64,000 nt of DNA from Cellulomonas sp. WB94 (GTDB lineage: Bacteria > Actinomycetota > Actinomycetes > Actinomycetales > Cellulomonadaceae). Position 1 is the first letter of the stretch, and each line of letters opens with the position of its first letter. This document shows, one piece after another, positions 3,821 through 35,168 of this stretch. The notes under the pieces are model-generated. The model saw only the letters and a list, made by a program, of their open reading frames with translations, had not been told where the DNA came from and searched no databases. The translations under genes were made by a program, and so were the position numbers. The DNA is taken from positions 2,046,001-2,110,000 of the forward strand of contig NZ_QEES01000002.1 of assembly GCF_003115775.1 (NCBI RefSeq), read 5' to 3'.

Positions 3821-5071
3821 TCAGTACCGTGAGCTGACCGAGAGCGACGACGCCGTGGCGAGCGCCTCAGGCACGGCGCTGAGGTACACGTGGGCGACGT
3901 CGTACGGTTCGTACCCCGTCGACCGGACGCCGTCGAGGTCGTTCTCCTCGTGCGCGAGCACAGCCGCCAGGACCGGCCCGTACGGGCCGCTCTGGTTGAG
4001 CAGGGCGTTCGCGACGTCGGTGGACACCCCGGTGCGGGCCACGAGCTCGGTGGGGGCGATGCCCAGCTGGGACGCGACCGAGGACAGCAGACCGACCGTG
4101 TAGCCGGCGTCCTCGCCGCTGATGCCCTTGCAGGCCAGCGCCCGGGTGAGGATCGCCCACAGGGCCCCGATGGACGTGGGCCGGGCGTCGATGAGCGAGG
4201 CCATCGCGAGCGCGGCGATCTGCTGCGGTCCGACCAGGACGACCGCCTGCTGGACCGAGTCGATCTCGCGGCGCAGCGCGTAGCTGCTCGAGTTGACCAG
4301 GTGCAGGACGCGCATCGCGAGCTCGGGGTCCGAGCTGACGACCCGGACCACGGCCGCCTGGTCGACGTGCGGCTGGCTGAGCAGCTGCATGAGCTCGAGG
4401 CACTGCAGCTCGCCCGCGCTGAACTCGCGGCCGCTGGGCGCAGTCTCGCGCTGGAACATCGGACCCTGGAGCAGGTCGGCGCCGAGCTGGCGGGCGAGGT
4501 GGATCCGGTCACGCGTGTCGGCGCGCTCGGCGATGACTGTGCCACCGGCGTCGTGCGCCCGGTCGATGAGGATCGCGATGTCGTCCGGCGTGCGCGAGAC
4601 GTCGACCTTGACGAGGTCCGTGAGCGGGAGGAGTGCGTCCTGCGGCCCGGTGCCCCGGTAGTTGGCGAGCGCGATCCGCAGGCCGCGGTCGCGCGCGGCG
4701 GACACGAGCCCGGTGGCGTCGTCGCGCTGCGCGAGCGCGGGCGGGATCTCGAGCACGATGCCGTGGGGGGAGTCCGGGGCCACGAGGTCGCCGGACAGCA
4801 GGCGGCTCGTGGCGCGCAGCAGGATCGGTCGGTCGCCCGCGAGCAGCGCGACGTCGAGCCGCGAGTACTCGATGTCGACGAGGTGCTCGACCTCGGGCTC
4901 AGGGAACATCCCGCCGACGCCGTCGAGGACGTTCACGCGGATCGCGTAGCCGTACACGCTGCGGTCGGGGTGCACGACCGGCTGCCGCAGGATCGCGATC
5001 TCGCTCGCGCGGGCTGAGGCGTTTCGGTCGTTCAGCAGGCTCATCAGCCAGCTCTCCCCGGGGTCGGTCAT
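3821..5071 (-). CDS. Degenerate EAL domain plus HDOD domain signalling protein
   Basis: A 416-residue cytoplasmic protein. The N-terminal half (about 25-200) has the fold pattern of an EAL c-di-GMP phosphodiesterase, but the metal-binding and catalytic signatures are absent: the ExLxR position reads YAIRV and the later acidic motif reads DLVKVDVS. The C-terminal half (about 210-400) is an HDOD domain, as in YuxH-type proteins (family knowledge). It is therefore probably a scaffold or sensor rather than an enzyme. It reads in the same direction as fliW but has its own FliA-type promoter 14 bp upstream of the start, which makes it a member of the motility regulon by inference. Confidence 0.8.
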   Translation of the reverse strand: MTDPGESWLMSLLNDRNASARASEIAILRQPVVHPDRSVYGYAIRVNVLDGVGGMFPEPEVEHLVDIEYSRLDVALLAGDRPILLRATSRLLSGDLVAPDSPHGIVLEIPPALAQRDDATGLVSAARDRGLRIALANYRGTGPQDALLPLTDLVKVDVSRTPDDIAILIDRAHDAGGTVIAERADTRDRIHLARQLGADLLQGPMFQRETAPSGREFSAGELQCLELMQLLSQPHVDQAAVVRVVSSDPELAMRVLHLVNSSSYALRREIDSVQQAVVLVGPQQIAALAMASLIDARPTSIGALWAILTRALACKGISGEDAGYTVGLLSSVASQLGIAPTELVARTGVSTDVANALLNQSGPYGPVLAAVLAHEENDLDGVRSTGYEPYDVAHVYLSAVPEALATASSLSVSSRY

Positions 5072-5085
5072 CGATGTCCCCCGGC

Positions 5086-5112
5086 CTATCGGTCGCGGTG
5101 TCCTGTCGTTGA
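5086..5112 (-). promoter_or_regulatory. FliA-type promoter of the EAL-HDOD gene
   Basis: Read on the minus strand: -35 TCAA (5109-5112), 15-base spacer, -10 ACCGATAG (5086-5093), just before the start at 5071. It matches the pattern shared by eight other sites in the window. Assignment to sigma-28 is by similarity to the GCCGATAA -10 of the family. Confidence 0.65.
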
Positions 5113-5164: not shown

Positions 5165-5587
5165 TCAGCCCAGCGGTGCGCGCAGCGGCAGGTCGCCGTC
5201 GAGGACCGTCTGGACGGCCTGACCGGTCGCGGGGTCGAGCACGAGGGGAGCGAGCAGGTTGGCGGTCGGCGCGCTGCCATCCTCGCCGGGGCGGACGACG
5301 ACGAGCGTCGCGACCGAGCCCTCACCGACGCCGATGCTGTCGCGCACGTCGGAGCGGACGGTCGGCGCGTAGTCGGGGAAGAACGCGCCCGGAGTGACGA
5401 CGAAGAGCCGGATCGACTGCTCGTCCTCCGGGAGGCTGCGCAGCGCGTAGAGCACCCCGATGTCGTCGAGCGAGGTCAGCGAGAAGTCCGCGTGCCCCGG
5501 CAGGCCCGGCAGCGGGTCGACGAGGTGCAGCGCCCGCGGCAGGGCGGGCGTCGGGGTCGGCTCGGTCACGGCGGCTGCGGCGTTCAT
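5165..5587 (-). CDS. fliW: Flagellar assembly factor FliW
   Basis: A 140-residue acidic protein. The FliW core is recognisable: GLPGHADFSLTSLDD, then a segment around FVVTPGAFFPDYAP and VATLVVVRPG. FliW binds flagellin and, at a second site, binds and inactivates CsrA, so that flagellin mRNA is translated only when free flagellin is low (established in Bacillus and Campylobacter). Its start overlaps the flgL stop by 4 bases (ATGA), making it the last gene of flgN-flgK-flgL-fliW. Its partner csrA is 29 kb away at 34890, and the fliC leader carries CsrA-like sites. Confidence 0.92.
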   Translation of the reverse strand: MNAAAAVTEPTPTPALPRALHLVDPLPGLPGHADFSLTSLDDIGVLYALRSLPEDEQSIRLFVVTPGAFFPDYAPTVRSDVRDSIGVGEGSVATLVVVRPGEDGSAPTANLLAPLVLDPATGQAVQTVLDGDLPLRAPLG

Positions 5588-8496: not shown

Positions 8497-8665
8497 CCAG
8501 TCTTGGCAGGGTGAAACGGGCTCAGACTGGACAGTTGTCCAGATATAGCACGTCCTGCTTCGGGGGAAATGGCGCGCACACGGGCGATTCGCACCCCTTG
8601 TCGCGGAACCTACCGCGGCGTCCGGCCAGGTCAGACGGCCAATCGCGTCATCGGAGGAATTGCGG

Positions 8666-8683
8666 ATGTGATCTACATCACAT
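8666..8683. promoter_or_regulatory. CRP/GlxR-type binding site upstream of fliA
   Basis: The sequence ATGTGATCTACATCACAT contains the TGTGA-N6-TCACA dyad of the CRP/FNR superfamily and closely matches the classical CRP consensus core. It lies in the 409-bp divergent region between flgN and fliA, about 140 bp before the chosen fliA start. I do not see an unambiguous housekeeping promoter, so whether it activates or represses is unknown. The rest of the 8415-8823 interval holds the flgN promoter and no credible gene. Confidence 0.6.
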
Positions 8684-8823
8684 CTGATGTGGTGGCTTAC
8701 AACCGAACAGTGGTGGCATGGGCGATTCACAGGTCCGCATCGTCCGATTCTCAGTGTCGAAGCGGTTCGTGGCCCGCAATAGTGCTGCTCAAGCGGCGAG
8801 TCGGGGGGGACGACAGTACGGGG

Positions 8824-9726
8824 GTGACTACCACCGGACACGCCACTGACGAGCTCGTGGCACAGCACCTGCCGCTCGTCGGCTACCACGTGAGCGAGAT
8901 GCTCATGCGTGTCCCCCGGACCGTCAACCGCGACGACCTCGCCTCCGCCGGGAGCCTCGCGCTGGTTCTCGCCGCGCGGGCCTACGACGCGACGACGGGC
9001 GTGCCCTTCGCTCGGTACGCCGCGCTGCGCATCCGTGGCGCGCTGCTCGACGAGCTGCGATCGATGGACTGGGCGACCCGCGGTGCACGGCACCGCGCCC
9101 GTGAGCTCACCACGACCACGGAGACCCTCTCCGCTAGCCTCGGCCGCACGCCGAGCCGCGACGAGCTCGCGACCGCGCTCGGCACCGACGTCGCCGGCGT
9201 CGACCAGGCGCGGGACGACGCGGCCCGCCGCGTGCTCAGCCTCGACGCGACAGTCCACCCGCTCGCCGAGCTCGTCGCGGACCGTGGGCCGAGCCCCGAA
9301 GAGGCGCTGCTCGCGACCGAGCGACTGCAGTACCTGCGCGCCGGCGTCAGCACCCTGCCCGACCGTCTGCGGCACGTCATCGAGGAGCTGTTCCTCAAGG
9401 ACCGCCCCGTCGCCGAGCTCGCCGCCGAGCTGGGCGTGACCCAGTCCCGTGTCAGCCAGCTGCGCACCGAGGCGCTCACGCTCCTGCGCGACGGCCTCAA
9501 CGCGAGCCTCGACCCCGACCTCGTCCCCGAGGCCGACCGGCCGGACGGCGTTGCCGAGCGTCGCCGCCAGACCTACTTCGCCGCCGTGGCCGCTCGCGCC
9601 GCGATGGGCACCTCGAGCATCGACTATGCCTCCGCGGGCGCGGGAGTCATCCCGACGCAGCGTCCCGCGACCGAGGCCGACCAGGGATCTGACGCCGGTC
9701 GCGGCGCCCTGTTCGCCACCGCCTGA
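8824..9726 (+). CDS. fliA: RNA polymerase sigma factor FliA (sigma-28)
   Basis: About 300 residues from the GTG at 8824, which follows a G-rich ribosome site; longer in-frame starts would run into the regulatory region. Region 2 reads ARAYDATTGVPFARYAALRIRGALLDELRSMDW, here in the characteristic FliA form (RIRGALLDELR, then MDWATR). Region 4 is AAELGVTQSRVSQLRTEAL, a helix-turn-helix. There is an extra C-terminal tail of roughly 60 residues. FliA directs transcription of motility genes from GCCGAT-type promoters, nine of which are proposed in this window. No anti-sigma flgM is visible here. Confidence 0.93.
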   Translation: MTTTGHATDELVAQHLPLVGYHVSEMLMRVPRTVNRDDLASAGSLALVLAARAYDATTGVPFARYAALRIRGALLDELRSMDWATRGARHRARELTTTTETLSASLGRTPSRDELATALGTDVAGVDQARDDAARRVLSLDATVHPLAELVADRGPSPEEALLATERLQYLRAGVSTLPDRLRHVIEELFLKDRPVAELAAELGVTQSRVSQLRTEALTLLRDGLNASLDPDLVPEADRPDGVAERRRQTYFAAVAARAAMGTSSIDYASAGAGVIPTQRPATEADQGSDAGRGALFATA

Positions 9727-9755
9727 CCCCACAGGAAACTCCTTCGCAGAAATCC

Positions 9756-9781
9756 TCAACTCGGTGCGCGCTGGCCGATGA
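9756..9781 (+). promoter_or_regulatory. FliA-type promoter of fliC
   Basis: -35 TCAA (9756-9759), 14-base spacer, -10 GCCGATGA (9774-9781). The expected transcript start is around 9787-9789, which would place the leader hairpin at the extreme 5' end of the flagellin mRNA. Confidence 0.75.
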
Positions 9782-9787
9782 GACGGG

Positions 9788-9832
9788 TGCCAGCCCACGG
9801 ACGGGCGGCAGCTTCGACCCGAATCAAGGAGG
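9788..9832 (+). promoter_or_regulatory. Two CsrA-type binding sites in the fliC leader
   Basis: Site 1: a stem TGCC-A-GCCC (9788-9796) pairs with GGGC-GGCA (9803-9810) with one bulged A, leaving the hexaloop ACGGAC. The loop region contains CACGGACG (9796-9803), matching CANGGANG. Site 2: CAAGGAGG (9825-9832) is also a full match and overlaps the ribosome-binding site of the ATG at 9842. A GGA-loop site plus a second site at the Shine-Dalgarno is the known arrangement for CsrA repression of flagellin. Confidence 0.7.
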
Positions 9833-9841
9833 AGTTCCATC

Positions 9842-10669
9842 ATGGGTCTCTCGATCAACCAGAACATCGCGGCAGTCAACGCGTACCGCAACCTGTCCAA
9901 CACGCAGAACGACCTGAGCAAGTCGCTCGAGAAGCTCTCGTCCGGCTTCCGCATCAACCGCGCAGCGGACGACGCGGCCGGCCTGGCGATCTCCGAGGGC
10001 CTGCGCTCGCAGGTCGGTGGCCTCAAGGTCGCCGCCCGCAACGCCCAGGACGGCATCTCCGTCGTGCAGACCGCTGAAGGCGCCCTGACCGAGGTGCACA
10101 GCATCCTGCAGCGTGTCCGTGACCTGGCCGTCCAGGGCGCCAACGACTCGAACAGCGCCGAAGCCCGCAGCAACATCGAGACCGAGATCTCGAGCCTGGG
10201 TACCGAGCTCACGCGCATCTCCGACTCGACCAACTTCAACGGCACGAAGCTGCTCGACGGCTCCAACGCCGCTGGCCTGACCTTCCAGGTCGGCGCTGAC
10301 GGCGACGCGAACAGCGCGATCACGGTCACGCTGGACGACGTCAAGACCACGGTTGCTGGCATCTCCGCGCTCAAGGTCACGGACAACACCACGGCGCAGG
10401 CGTCGATCGTGGCGGTCGACACTGCGATCAAGGCAATCTCGACCACGCGTGCCGGACTCGGTGCCATGCAGAACCGCCTTGAGCACACGGTCAAGAACGT
10501 CAACGTCGCGGTGGAGAACCTGTCCGCGTCGGAGAGCCGGATCCGCGACACCGACATGGCGTCCGAGATGGTCCAGTTCACGCGCTCGCAGATCCTGTCG
10601 CAGGCCGGCACGGCGATGCTGGCGCAGGCCAACCAGATCCCCCAGGGCGTCCTGTCGCTCCTGCGCTGA
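9842..10669 (+). CDS. fliC: Flagellin FliC
   Basis: 275 residues, a short flagellin composed essentially of the D0/D1 core. The N-terminus is MGLSINQNIAAVNAYRNL with SLEKLSSGFRINRAADDAAG. The C-terminus is SRIRDTDMASEMVQFTRSQI, ending AQANQIPQGVLSLLR. The middle (about 140-190) is small, so surface-exposed D2/D3 domains are essentially missing. A strong GGAGGA ribosome site overlaps a CsrA motif. The gene is monocistronic or partly terminated by tandem stem-loops before fliD, which would allow higher flagellin dosage. Export is through the flagellar type III system. Confidence 0.97.
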   Translation: MGLSINQNIAAVNAYRNLSNTQNDLSKSLEKLSSGFRINRAADDAAGLAISEGLRSQVGGLKVAARNAQDGISVVQTAEGALTEVHSILQRVRDLAVQGANDSNSAEARSNIETEISSLGTELTRISDSTNFNGTKLLDGSNAAGLTFQVGADGDANSAITVTLDDVKTTVAGISALKVTDNTTAQASIVAVDTAIKAISTTRAGLGAMQNRLEHTVKNVNVAVENLSASESRIRDTDMASEMVQFTRSQILSQAGTAMLAQANQIPQGVLSLLR

Positions 10670-13082: not shown

Positions 13083-13101
13083 CACCGTGGGACACACGGT
13101 G
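13083..13101 (+). terminator. Stem-loop after the fliS operon
   Basis: CACCGT (13083-13088) and ACGGTG (13096-13101) form a short hairpin in the 228-bp gap before flgB. It is upstream of the flgB promoter, and no T-run follows. It is a weak candidate terminator. Confidence 0.35.
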
Positions 13102-13153
13102 ACGTAGTCGCTCCGCCAGGCGAGTGAACGTCAACCTCGGCGGCTCGAAACCC

Positions 13154-13180
13154 TCACCCACCAGCCGCGTCACCCGATGG
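13154..13180 (+). promoter_or_regulatory. FliA-type promoter of the flgB basal-body operon
   Basis: -35 TCAC (13154-13157), 15-base spacer, -10 CCCGATGG (13173-13180), about 80 bases before flgB. The first -10 base is C instead of G, so the match is weaker than that of fliC or flbD. Confidence 0.5.
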
Positions 13181-13260
13181 GGACGACGAGCAAGGATCGC
13201 TCACGCAGCAGGCCACGGACCGGCCGACCCGAGCACCACTGTCGGTGAGGTGGACGGTCC

Positions 13261-13608
13261 ATGTCCGTGTTCGACTCCGTGAGCTCCGTGGCGCTCAACA
13301 GCGCCCTGGACGGGCTCGCGCTGCGTCAGCGCACCATCGCGGAGAACGTCGCGAACATCAACACCCCCGGCTACCAGGCCAAGCGCGTCCAGTTCGAGAC
13401 CGCCCTGGCCCGCGCCGTCGAGCAGGGCTCAGGCGCCGCCGGCGCGAGTGTCGCCCGCTCGCTCGAGCCGACCCGCGAGGACGGCAACAACGTCAACCTC
13501 GACGCGGAGACGACCCTCAACGTGGACACGAACCTGCGCTACCAGCTCGCGACCCAGGCGCTCGACCAGACGTTCTCGACGCTCCGCATCGCGATGAGGA
13601 CCTCCTGA
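13261..13608 (+). CDS. flgB: Flagellar proximal rod protein FlgB
   Basis: 115 residues. The rod-family N-terminal motif is complete: [20 protein letters not shown] followed by [12 protein letters not shown]. The C-terminal helix ([20 protein letters not shown]) matches FlgB. FlgB forms the most proximal rod segment, next to the MS ring and FliE. It is the first gene of a long operon extending to flgE, and its TGA overlaps the flgC ATG (TGATG). Confidence 0.95.
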
Positions 13609-23430: not shown

Positions 23431-23469
23431 GAAGCGGGCAAACAGTCGCGCTTGGTCGCCGAAGAATGC

Positions 23470-23496
23470 TCACGAGCGCAGGTCATCGGCCGATCT
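23470..23496 (+). promoter_or_regulatory. FliA-type promoter of flbD-motA-motB-fliL
   Basis: -35 TCAC (23470-23473), 15-base spacer, -10 GCCGATCT (23489-23496), about 55 bases before the flbD start. Confidence 0.7.
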
Positions 23497-23550
23497 GATG
23501 GGTACAAGGCCCACGGAAGGGCCTGAAGTCGTACCAGGGACGGACATGCC

Positions 23551-23865
23551 GTGATCGTCGTGACGCGCCTCAACGGGCCGCAGTTCGGGGTGAACCCCGA
23601 CCTGCTCCAACGCATCGACAGTGCACCGGACACCATCCTCACGCTCATCGACGGCACGAAGTACATCGTCGAGGAGTCGATGAGCGAGGTGATCGAGCTC
23701 GTCAACGAGCACCGGTCCCAGCTCCTCGCCCGTGCGCACGACATCCAGCTGTTCGCGCCCCCGTCCGTCGAGCTCGTCCGTGACGTCCCCGGCGACGTGG
23801 ATGACGACGAGGACGACGACGCCCCGCTGGCACCCCCGGTCCAGCTGCACCCCAGGACCCGCTGA
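23551..23865 (+). CDS. flbD: Flagellar FlbD family protein
   Basis: 104 residues from a GTG at 23551. MIVVTRLNGPQFGVNPDLLQ, then DTILTLIDGTKYIVEES and VIELVNEH, match the small FlbD family (SwrD in Bacillus), which is roughly 60-75 residues. The extra C-terminus is acidic (GDVDDDEDDDAPL). SwrD-type proteins raise motor power and are encoded next to motA/motB or fliL, as here. It overlaps motA by one base. It is unrelated to the Caulobacter FlbD regulator. Confidence 0.88.
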   Translation: MIVVTRLNGPQFGVNPDLLQRIDSAPDTILTLIDGTKYIVEESMSEVIELVNEHRSQLLARAHDIQLFAPPSVELVRDVPGDVDDDEDDDAPLAPPVQLHPRTR

Positions 23866-26124: not shown

Positions 26125-26142
26125 GGCGCCATGGAGGGCGCC
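26125..26142 (+). terminator. Stem-loop after fliL
   Basis: GGCGCC (26125-26130) and GGCGCC (26137-26142) with a 6-base loop lie between fliL and the fliM promoter. CCGG-CCTG-CCGG at 26104-26115 is a smaller companion. There is no T-tract, so a terminator role is tentative. Confidence 0.4.
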
Positions 26143-26211
26143 GCACCGCTCCGTCCGCACGTCGGCCCATGAGGGGTCGAGGTCGGAGAAGAACGACCTG
26201 AGCCAGGTTCC

Positions 26212-26238
26212 TCATACCTGTGCGGAGCCCGCCGATAG
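26212..26238 (+). promoter_or_regulatory. FliA-type promoter of the fliM export-gate operon
   Basis: -35 TCAT (26212-26215), 15-base spacer, -10 GCCGATAG (26231-26238). It lies only about 10-25 bases before the candidate fliM starts, so the transcript would be leaderless or nearly so. Confidence 0.65.
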
Positions 26239-26246
26239 AGACGGGC

Positions 26247-27194
26247 GTGACGGTCAACGAGTCGATGCACGCGCCTGCGCGCCCCGCGCCGCGGCGCGCC
26301 CGCACGCAGGAGCCCGAGTCGTACGACTTCCGCCGACCGATGACCATGGTGCGCGAGCACGCCCGGATCCTCGAGATGGCGTTCGAGACGTTCGCCCGGC
26401 AGTGGGGCACCCAGCAGACCGCGCGGCTGCGCGTGATGTCGCAGGTGACGCTGGACGAGCTGACGCTGCGCACCTACGACGAGTACGTGCGCTCGCTCCC
26501 GCCGACCACGGCGATGGTGCTGTGCACGATCGAGGAGACCCGCCAGACCGCCGTCATGCAGTTCCCGGTCGGGACCGCGATGGTCTGGATCGACTACCTG
26601 CTCGGCGGGTCGGGTCGCGGCGACGAGCGCGAGGGCCGCGAGCTCACCGAGATCGAGCTGAGCCTCATGCGGGACCTGCTGCGCCCCGCGCTCGGTGACC
26701 TCACCTACGCGTTCGCGGGCCTGCTCCCGCTCGCTGTGACGGTCCGCACCGTCCAGTACAACCCGCAGTTCGTGCAGGCCGTCGGCGCGTCGGAGTCGGT
26801 CCTCGTGGCCTCCTTCACGGTCCGCTCGGGTGACCGCGAGGACACCGCGACCTTCATGGTGCCCGCCGAGCTCCTGCTCTCCGCGCTGCGCAGCGCCGAG
26901 GGGACGGACTCGCGCTCGGCCGACGAGCGTCGCACCCAGGCGGCCGCGCTCATCGACCTCGAGGCCGCCGTCCAGCGCGTCCCGGTCGAGGTCTCGGTCC
27001 GCTTCTCGCCCGTCACGGTCCACCCGCGTGAGGTCATCGGCCTCACGGTCGGGGACGTGCTGCCCCTGAACCACCCGTCGACGAAGCCGCTGGACGTCGT
27101 CGTCGACGGAGTTGTGCTTGCCCACGCCGCAGCCGGCAACAACGGTTCCCGGCTCGCCTGCATGGTCGTCACCGTCGAGGAGAACCCCAGATGA
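26247..27194 (+). CDS. fliM: Flagellar motor switch protein FliM
   Basis: About 315 residues. YDFRRPMTMVREHARILEMA, then the middle CheC-like domain (MQFPVGTAMVWIDYLLGG, LSLMRDLLRPALGDL), and the C-terminal SpoA domain (VEVSVRFSPVTVHPREVIGL). The N-terminal CheY-binding peptide (LSQxEIDALL in other species) is absent. An in-frame stop at 26199-26201 rules out an upstream extension carrying it. I chose the GTG at 26247 because the -10 element ends at 26238; ATG 26265 is an equally possible start. It overlaps fliN by 4 bases. Confidence 0.92.
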   Translation: MTVNESMHAPARPAPRRARTQEPESYDFRRPMTMVREHARILEMAFETFARQWGTQQTARLRVMSQVTLDELTLRTYDEYVRSLPPTTAMVLCTIEETRQTAVMQFPVGTAMVWIDYLLGGSGRGDEREGRELTEIELSLMRDLLRPALGDLTYAFAGLLPLAVTVRTVQYNPQFVQAVGASESVLVASFTVRSGDREDTATFMVPAELLLSALRSAEGTDSRSADERRTQAAALIDLEAAVQRVPVEVSVRFSPVTVHPREVIGLTVGDVLPLNHPSTKPLDVVVDGVVLAHAAAGNNGSRLACMVVTVEENPR

Positions 27195-34889: not shown

Positions 34890-35168
34890 ATGCTGGTCCT
34901 GAGCCGTCGAGTGGGCGAACGCCTCATGATCGGCGACGACATCGTCGTCACCGTCATCGAGGTGCGCGGCGACGGTGTGCGCCTGGGGATCGACGCCCCC
35001 CGCGAGGTGCGGGTGCACCGCGCCGAGGTCCTCGAGGCCGTCCGGGCGGCCAACGTCGCAGCGAGCGCGGTCGACGACGACGCGGTCGCCCAGCTGCGGA
35101 GCCTGATCCCGTCGACTCCTCAGCCCCCCGAATCCCTCACGCGGGAGACCCAGCCGCCGATCGGCTGA
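34890..35168 (+). CDS. csrA: Carbon storage regulator CsrA
   Basis: 92 residues. MLVLSRRVGERLMIGDDIVV and IEVRGDGVRLGIDAPREVRV are textbook CsrA, with the RNA-contacting R-E-V-x-V-H-R strand. The C-terminal 30 residues are a variable extension. It represses translation of mRNAs with GGA motifs, and the fliC leader has two such motifs. FliW, encoded at 5165-5587, is its expected protein antagonist. Confidence 0.96.
   Translation: MLVLSRRVGERLMIGDDIVVTVIEVRGDGVRLGIDAPREVRVHRAEVLEAVRAANVAASAVDDDAVAQLRSLIPSTPQPPESLTRETQPPIG

Follow-up and report, generated by a model that had tools for sequence, protein, structure and literature searches.

A conserved GGA hairpin in the flagellin leader of Cellulomonas sp. 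WB94, a predicted target of CsrA-FliW control in Actinomycetota

The fliC leader and its two putative CsrA sites

We analyzed a stretch of 64,000 nucleotides (nt) from the actinobacterium Cellulomonas sp. WB94 (contig NZ_QEES01000002.1, positions 2,046,001 to 2,110,000; here called the window, in whose own numbering all coordinates are given). The subject is the leader of the flagellin gene fliC and its possible control by the RNA-binding protein CsrA and the CsrA antagonist FliW. The fliC gene lies at 9842..10669 on the plus strand (Pfam Flagellin_N, E value of 2e-47; Flagellin_C, E value of 4.6e-30). Its promoter sits between fliC and the end of a plus-strand gene at 8569..9726, directly 5' of the promoter, which encodes a sigma factor of the FliA/WhiG type (TIGR02479 is the best match, under the strict cut-off, and Pfam regions 2, 3, and 4 are present). 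Direct reading of the plus strand reveals the FliA-type elements, with a -35 element of CCTCAAC at 9754..9760 and a -10 element of GCCGATGA at 9774..9781. Sigma-28 promoters usually start transcripts 7 to 8 nt 3' of the -10 element, and from this geometry the fliC mRNA is predicted to start at about 9788.

The RNA of positions 9788..9810 (plus strand) forms a stem of 8 base pairs (bp) with a single bulged A and the hexaloop ACGGAC. Its parts are UGCC (9788-9791), the bulged A, GCCC (9793-9796), the loop (9797-9802), and GGGCGGCA (9803-9810). RNA folding returned the identical hairpin in the minimum-energy and centroid structures, with -19 kcal/mol and a z score of -1.5 for the whole leader. 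This stem-loop contains the first putative CsrA-type site, as CACGGACG (9796-9803), which spans the loop, fits the pattern CANGGANG. The second putative site, CAAGGAGG (9825..9832, plus strand), fits the same pattern and overlaps the Shine-Dalgarno sequence of the fliC ATG at 9842. A sequence-only reading of the window had described the hexaloop stem behind a FliA-type promoter, the two motif matches with the second on the Shine-Dalgarno sequence, and genes for CsrA and FliW. Sequence reading and folding recovered the stem, both sites stand at the positions given above, and matches to profile hidden Markov models identified the two genes (at 34890 and 5165).

Taken singly, the window sequence provides modest evidence against chance. 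Dinucleotide shuffles of the fliC leader give an ANGGA hairpin in 1.7% of cases, and the 64 kb, both strands included, contain 5 ANGGAN hexaloops on stems of at least 4 bp. A search of positions 9600-9950 with Rfam covariance models gave no match up to an E value of 5. We consider the hairpin not to be a product of chance because it is conserved in relatives, rather than on the strength of single-sequence statistics.

Conservation of the hairpin and of the second site

We compared 107 distinct flagellin leaders from Cellulomonas, Nocardioides, Aeromicrobium, Demequina, Microbacterium, Leifsonia, Curtobacterium, Arthrobacter, Dactylosporangium, and others; these sequences share kinship, and the conservation figures are not counts of independent events. 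An ANGGAN loop is present in 107 of 107 leaders, 28 to 80 nt 5' of the start codon, and the two Watson-Crick pairs closing the loop are present in 106. Conservation of the GGA loop had been set beforehand as a point on which the hypothesis could fail, and no leader lacks it. The outer seven stem pairs, in contrast to the loop, vary on both sides among the 64 distinct 24-mers of an ungapped alignment. The compensatory stem changes looked for among related leaders are evident there, with a covariation score of 0.439, compared to 0.142 for shuffled and at most 0.121 for slid alignments, and with 108 double-change cells versus 45. Centering the alignment on the loop leans slightly toward structure, but more than one ANGGAN per leader was rarely available. 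When any ANGGA hairpin is counted, it is found in 101 of the 107 leaders (2.3 expected from shuffles), in 19 of 20 leaders of a further set (0.4 expected), and in 38 of 68 leaders of a phylum-wide sample (1.5 expected from shuffles). A five-base loop, GAC-ANGGA-GUC, is frequent in some deep-branching leaders (L126, L127, and L136-L139) and is possibly a variant CsrA site.

The loop lies 15 or 16 nt from the -10 octamer in 72 of the 107 leaders and 13 to 17 nt from it in 97. By direct count the distance is 15 nt in the window, where the loop starts at the 16th base after the last base of the -10 element. The promoters of the relatives keep a -35 element of the CT[A/C]A type 5' of the -10 element, and the CCGA of the latter is essentially invariant. 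Because this distance is nearly fixed, the hairpin is placed at the predicted 5' end of the mRNA, and its stem would begin at, or a few bases from, that end. The near constancy of this distance would also suit an inverted repeat that serves as a DNA operator or that extends the FliA promoter downstream. However, an operator should have fixed arms around a variable center, whereas here the center is fixed and the outer arms change compensatorily, and the operator reading was rejected for this reason. The hairpin is also not part of the promoter, as the other FliA-type promoters of the window (at 26231 before fliM, at 35156, and at 5093 on the minus strand) have no such hairpin downstream. We therefore regard a role of the repeat as a DNA element as extremely improbable.

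The hairpin might instead be a general 5' stabilizer that shields flagellin mRNA from RNases, with GGA motifs to which CsrA does not bind. Flagellin mRNA is abundant, and the predicted 5' end is the place where such hairpins act. Yet mRNA stabilization calls for a stem and gives no reason for an invariant loop, and in these leaders it is ANGGAN that is invariant and the stem that varies. This explanation also leaves the bias toward CANGGAG at the second site and the co-occurrence of FliW and CsrA without a cause, and we consider it unlikely.

The second site bears on a further alternative, in which CsrA recognizes just the hairpin and CAAGGAGG is simply a Shine-Dalgarno sequence, so that the hairpin would exert control by itself or the leader would serve mainly as a CsrA sponge. 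The Campylobacter jejuni flaA leader has been shown to act in part as such a sponge, the second site lacks a conserved stem, and GGAGG is what Shine-Dalgarno function alone predicts. However, among the 91 leaders of relatives that have a GGAGG site, 85 carry CANGGAGG (59 CAC, 19 CAA, 6 CAT, and 1 CAG), whereas the same preceding bases are found at only 182 of 1860 GGAGG occurrences (10%) elsewhere in the same loci. Given this difference, the CA before NGGAGG appears not to be explicable by ribosome binding alone. In addition, the leader of flbD (described below) has CANGGAYG, not GGAGG, at the same position. Restriction of CsrA to the hairpin is thus highly improbable.

CsrA, FliW, and the likeness to known flagellin leaders

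The sole CsrA of the genome is encoded at 34890..35168 on the plus strand (Pfam E value of 1.4e-24; TIGR00202 above its cut-off). The protein has 92 amino acids and a long C-terminal tail. It has the RNA-binding residues L4, R6, R7, and R44, as well as V51 and N55, and it aligns through the tail with chain 5dmb_D, the Geobacillus CsrA structure used in PMC7829508, and with 1t3o. FliW binding requires V51 and N55 in C. jejuni CsrA and N55 in that of Bacillus subtilis (PMC7829508), and N55 is retained in nearly all sampled actinobacterial CsrAs. The gene for FliW, the CsrA antagonist and flagellin chaperone, lies behind flgK-flgL at 5165..5587 on the minus strand (Pfam FliW, E value of 2.4e-19). 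It is adjoined by an EAL/HDOD-domain gene (3821-5100, minus strand) behind the FliA-type promoter at 5093.

Among 396 genomes sampled across the phylum, 61 have flagellin-type matches (a few of them merely FlgL-like); CsrA is present in 60 of the 61 and FliW in 59. A single genome of this sample has FliW without flagellin, and the only flagellin-bearing genome without CsrA, G385, has an ambiguous leader. In a sample of 200 genomes from the organism's own family, CsrA was never seen without flagellin. About 20 genomes of the phylum sample (e.g., G213, G252, G356, G433, and G482) have CsrA and no flagellin match, almost all of them without FliW, which suggests that CsrA works independently of flagella in some deep lineages.

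The arrangement resembles that of B. subtilis hag (Yakhnin 2007; Mukherjee 2011, 2016), as far as it is summarized in PMC7652899 and PMC6529632. There too a flagellin mRNA carries two CsrA-type sites (putative in our case), the downstream one on the Shine-Dalgarno sequence, and FliW is an antagonist acting on the CsrA tail (here by analogy). It differs from hag in occurring in an actinobacterium with 72% G+C, in having csrA and fliW about 29 kb apart rather than adjacent, and in that its sites are known from sequence alone. The hag-like two-site layout, proposed for fliC in the sequence-only reading, has gained comparative support from the invariant loop, the compensatory stem, the fixed distance, and the FliW-contact residues of CsrA. 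That reading had also taken the position of a structured site right at the 5' end to be distinctive, which does not hold, as C. jejuni flaA has the same layout (PMC4894983). The flaA 5' untranslated region is 45 nt long and contains two stem-loops, SL1 and SL2 (Dugar 2016, PMC4894983). Like the fliC leader here, it is short, comes from a sigma-28-type promoter, and has a hairpin in its upstream half (SL1 in flaA) and a second ANGGA at the ribosome site; in both cases relatives show compensatory changes and FliW is present. Unlike in fliC, its GGA motifs are 21 nt apart, compared to 29 nt, and its second site lies in a stable hairpin, whereas that of fliC is hardly structured.

Every defining feature of a hag/flaA-type leader that a sequence can reveal is present at fliC. 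These are a flagellin gene (Flagellin_N/C); a sigma-28/FliA-type promoter, with a promoter-like site at nearly fixed distance in the 107 relatives and a predicted start; an ANGGA in a hairpin loop 5' of the ribosome site, with its fold, conserved loop, and covarying stem; a second GGA on the Shine-Dalgarno sequence, with its CAN enrichment; a spacing that a CsrA dimer could bridge (at least about 18 nt; 29 nt in the window, 21 to 47 nt with a median of 29 nt in relatives, above the optimum of 18 nt cited in PMC4894983); and a CsrA with RNA-binding residues and a FliW-type tail in a genome that encodes FliW. We consider it highly likely that the fliC leader belongs to the hag/flaA kind of element, through which CsrA and FliW keep flagellin in homeostasis. 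Flagellated Actinomycetota share this conserved arrangement and thus very probably throttle flagellin synthesis as Bacillus and Campylobacter do.

We predict that polymerase containing FliA starts the mRNA at about 9788 and that the first 23 nt fold into the hairpin, whose ACGGAC loop would be a strong site for CsrA. A dimer of the protein would hold this loop on one RNA-binding face and CAAGGAGG, 29 nt downstream, on the other, and CsrA on CAAGGAGG would block the ribosome, resulting in repression. Upon hook completion and flagellin export, FliW would be freed from flagellin and would bind the CsrA tail on the N55/V51 side, releasing the fliC mRNA for translation.

Several observations weigh against this interpretation. 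The stems of some relatives, at 9 to 13 bp, are longer than the 4 bp favored in systematic evolution of ligands by exponential enrichment (SELEX), and 30 of the 68 deep-branching leaders are without a clear hairpin (some of these being misplaced starts or paralogues). We considered and rejected a second conserved hairpin over the Shine-Dalgarno sequence, as only the loop-adjacent C-G and U-A pairs are common and the rest equals shuffles, and any CsrA role of the second site cannot be wholly disentangled from its use as a Shine-Dalgarno sequence. In a search of the whole genome, a covariance model built from just the hairpin lacks specificity, its top match lying inside a histidine kinase reading frame (L233). 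The two-site pattern CCAYGGANGG-N5..35-CANGGANG has two matches in all of the 3.87-Mb genome, the leaders of fliC and flbD (23511-23542), which speaks for the interpretation, but its reversed control matches once, and across 200 genomes, flagellum-less relatives included, about one match per genome is expected by chance. We therefore rejected the count per genome as a test of CsrA dependence, as only the location of a match is informative.

Firmicutes and Campylobacterota are known to control flagellin through CsrA and FliW. We found no experimental account of it in Actinomycetota in the literature searched, outside of which most subscription journals lie. The fliC leader is probably best read as a new, phylum-wide case of this known control, and a covarying leader hairpin of such breadth supports an old origin of the link between CsrA and flagellin.

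Related leaders of the flbD and flgB operons

The fliC leader is not alone, as the leaders of the flbD-motAB and flgB operons are related to it; these seem to be the less expected part of the finding, and the evidence for them is comparative. The leader of the flbD-motA-motB-fliL operon (23468-23553, plus strand) has the same layout as that of fliC, with a FliA-type promoter, a GGA hairpin, and CANGGANG in the Shine-Dalgarno position. The -35 element is GCTCACG (23468-23474), and the -10 element, GCCGATCT (23489..23496), is kept 5' of flbD in relatives. The hairpin AGGCCC-ACGGAA-GGGCCT (23507..23524) is kept in most of 30 relatives, among which the stems are exchanged in a compensatory manner (e.g., GGGTTC/GGACCC and CGGTTC/GGACCG). 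The second putative site, CAGGGACG (23535..23542), precedes the GTG at 23551 and belongs to the genome-wide two-site match. In relatives it is often CA[A/C/G]GGAYGG, a poor Shine-Dalgarno sequence and a good CsrA motif.

The flgB leader, on the plus strand, has a different layout. Behind a -35 element of CCTCACC (13152-13158) and a FliA-type -10 element, CCCGATGG (13173..13180), which is kept in relatives, lie two tandem hairpins, GAGC-AAGGATC-GCTC (13188..13202) and GGCC-ACGGACC-GGCC (13211..13225), located away from the Shine-Dalgarno sequence of the flgB ATG at 13261. Both are kept in 57 of 59 relatives, 20 to 28 nt apart and close behind the FliA-type promoter, from which the flgB start is predicted. 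Their loops are mostly of seven bases (ACGGAUC), with a hexaloop or exchanged stems in some cases. The energy-minimized fold of the window's own leader contains the first hairpin and pairs the region of the second otherwise, so that the second hairpin rests on conservation. Rfam covariance models run against 13100-13300 gave no match up to an E value of 5. In sequence, this leader, rather than that of fliC, resembles Escherichia coli flhDC in having two GGA sites near the 5' end and off the Shine-Dalgarno sequence; the flhDC mRNA is protected by CsrA bound at two 5'-proximal sites (Yakhnin 2013, as summarized in PMC7652899). The flgB leader differs in gene and phylum, and protection (against RNase E) is known for flhDC.

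The flgB and flbD leaders predict that CsrA times more than flagellin. Tentatively, and with somewhat less than even confidence, we propose that the CsrA of flagellated Actinomycetota is a dedicated flagellar regulator that reads three FliA-driven leaders in two layouts. The combination of hairpin and Shine-Dalgarno site (fliC and flbD-motAB) would mediate repression with release by FliW, and the tandem 5' hairpins of the flgB rod-hook operon would mediate protection or titration. If so, free CsrA would restrain filament and motor genes and favor rod-hook genes before hook completion, and FliW-flagellin would be a switch for the whole order of flagellar assembly.

At fliM, the -10 element at 26231 is so near the gene start (26200-26260) that the transcript would be nearly leaderless, and a further GGA hairpin is found 5' of this promoter, at 26125-26142.
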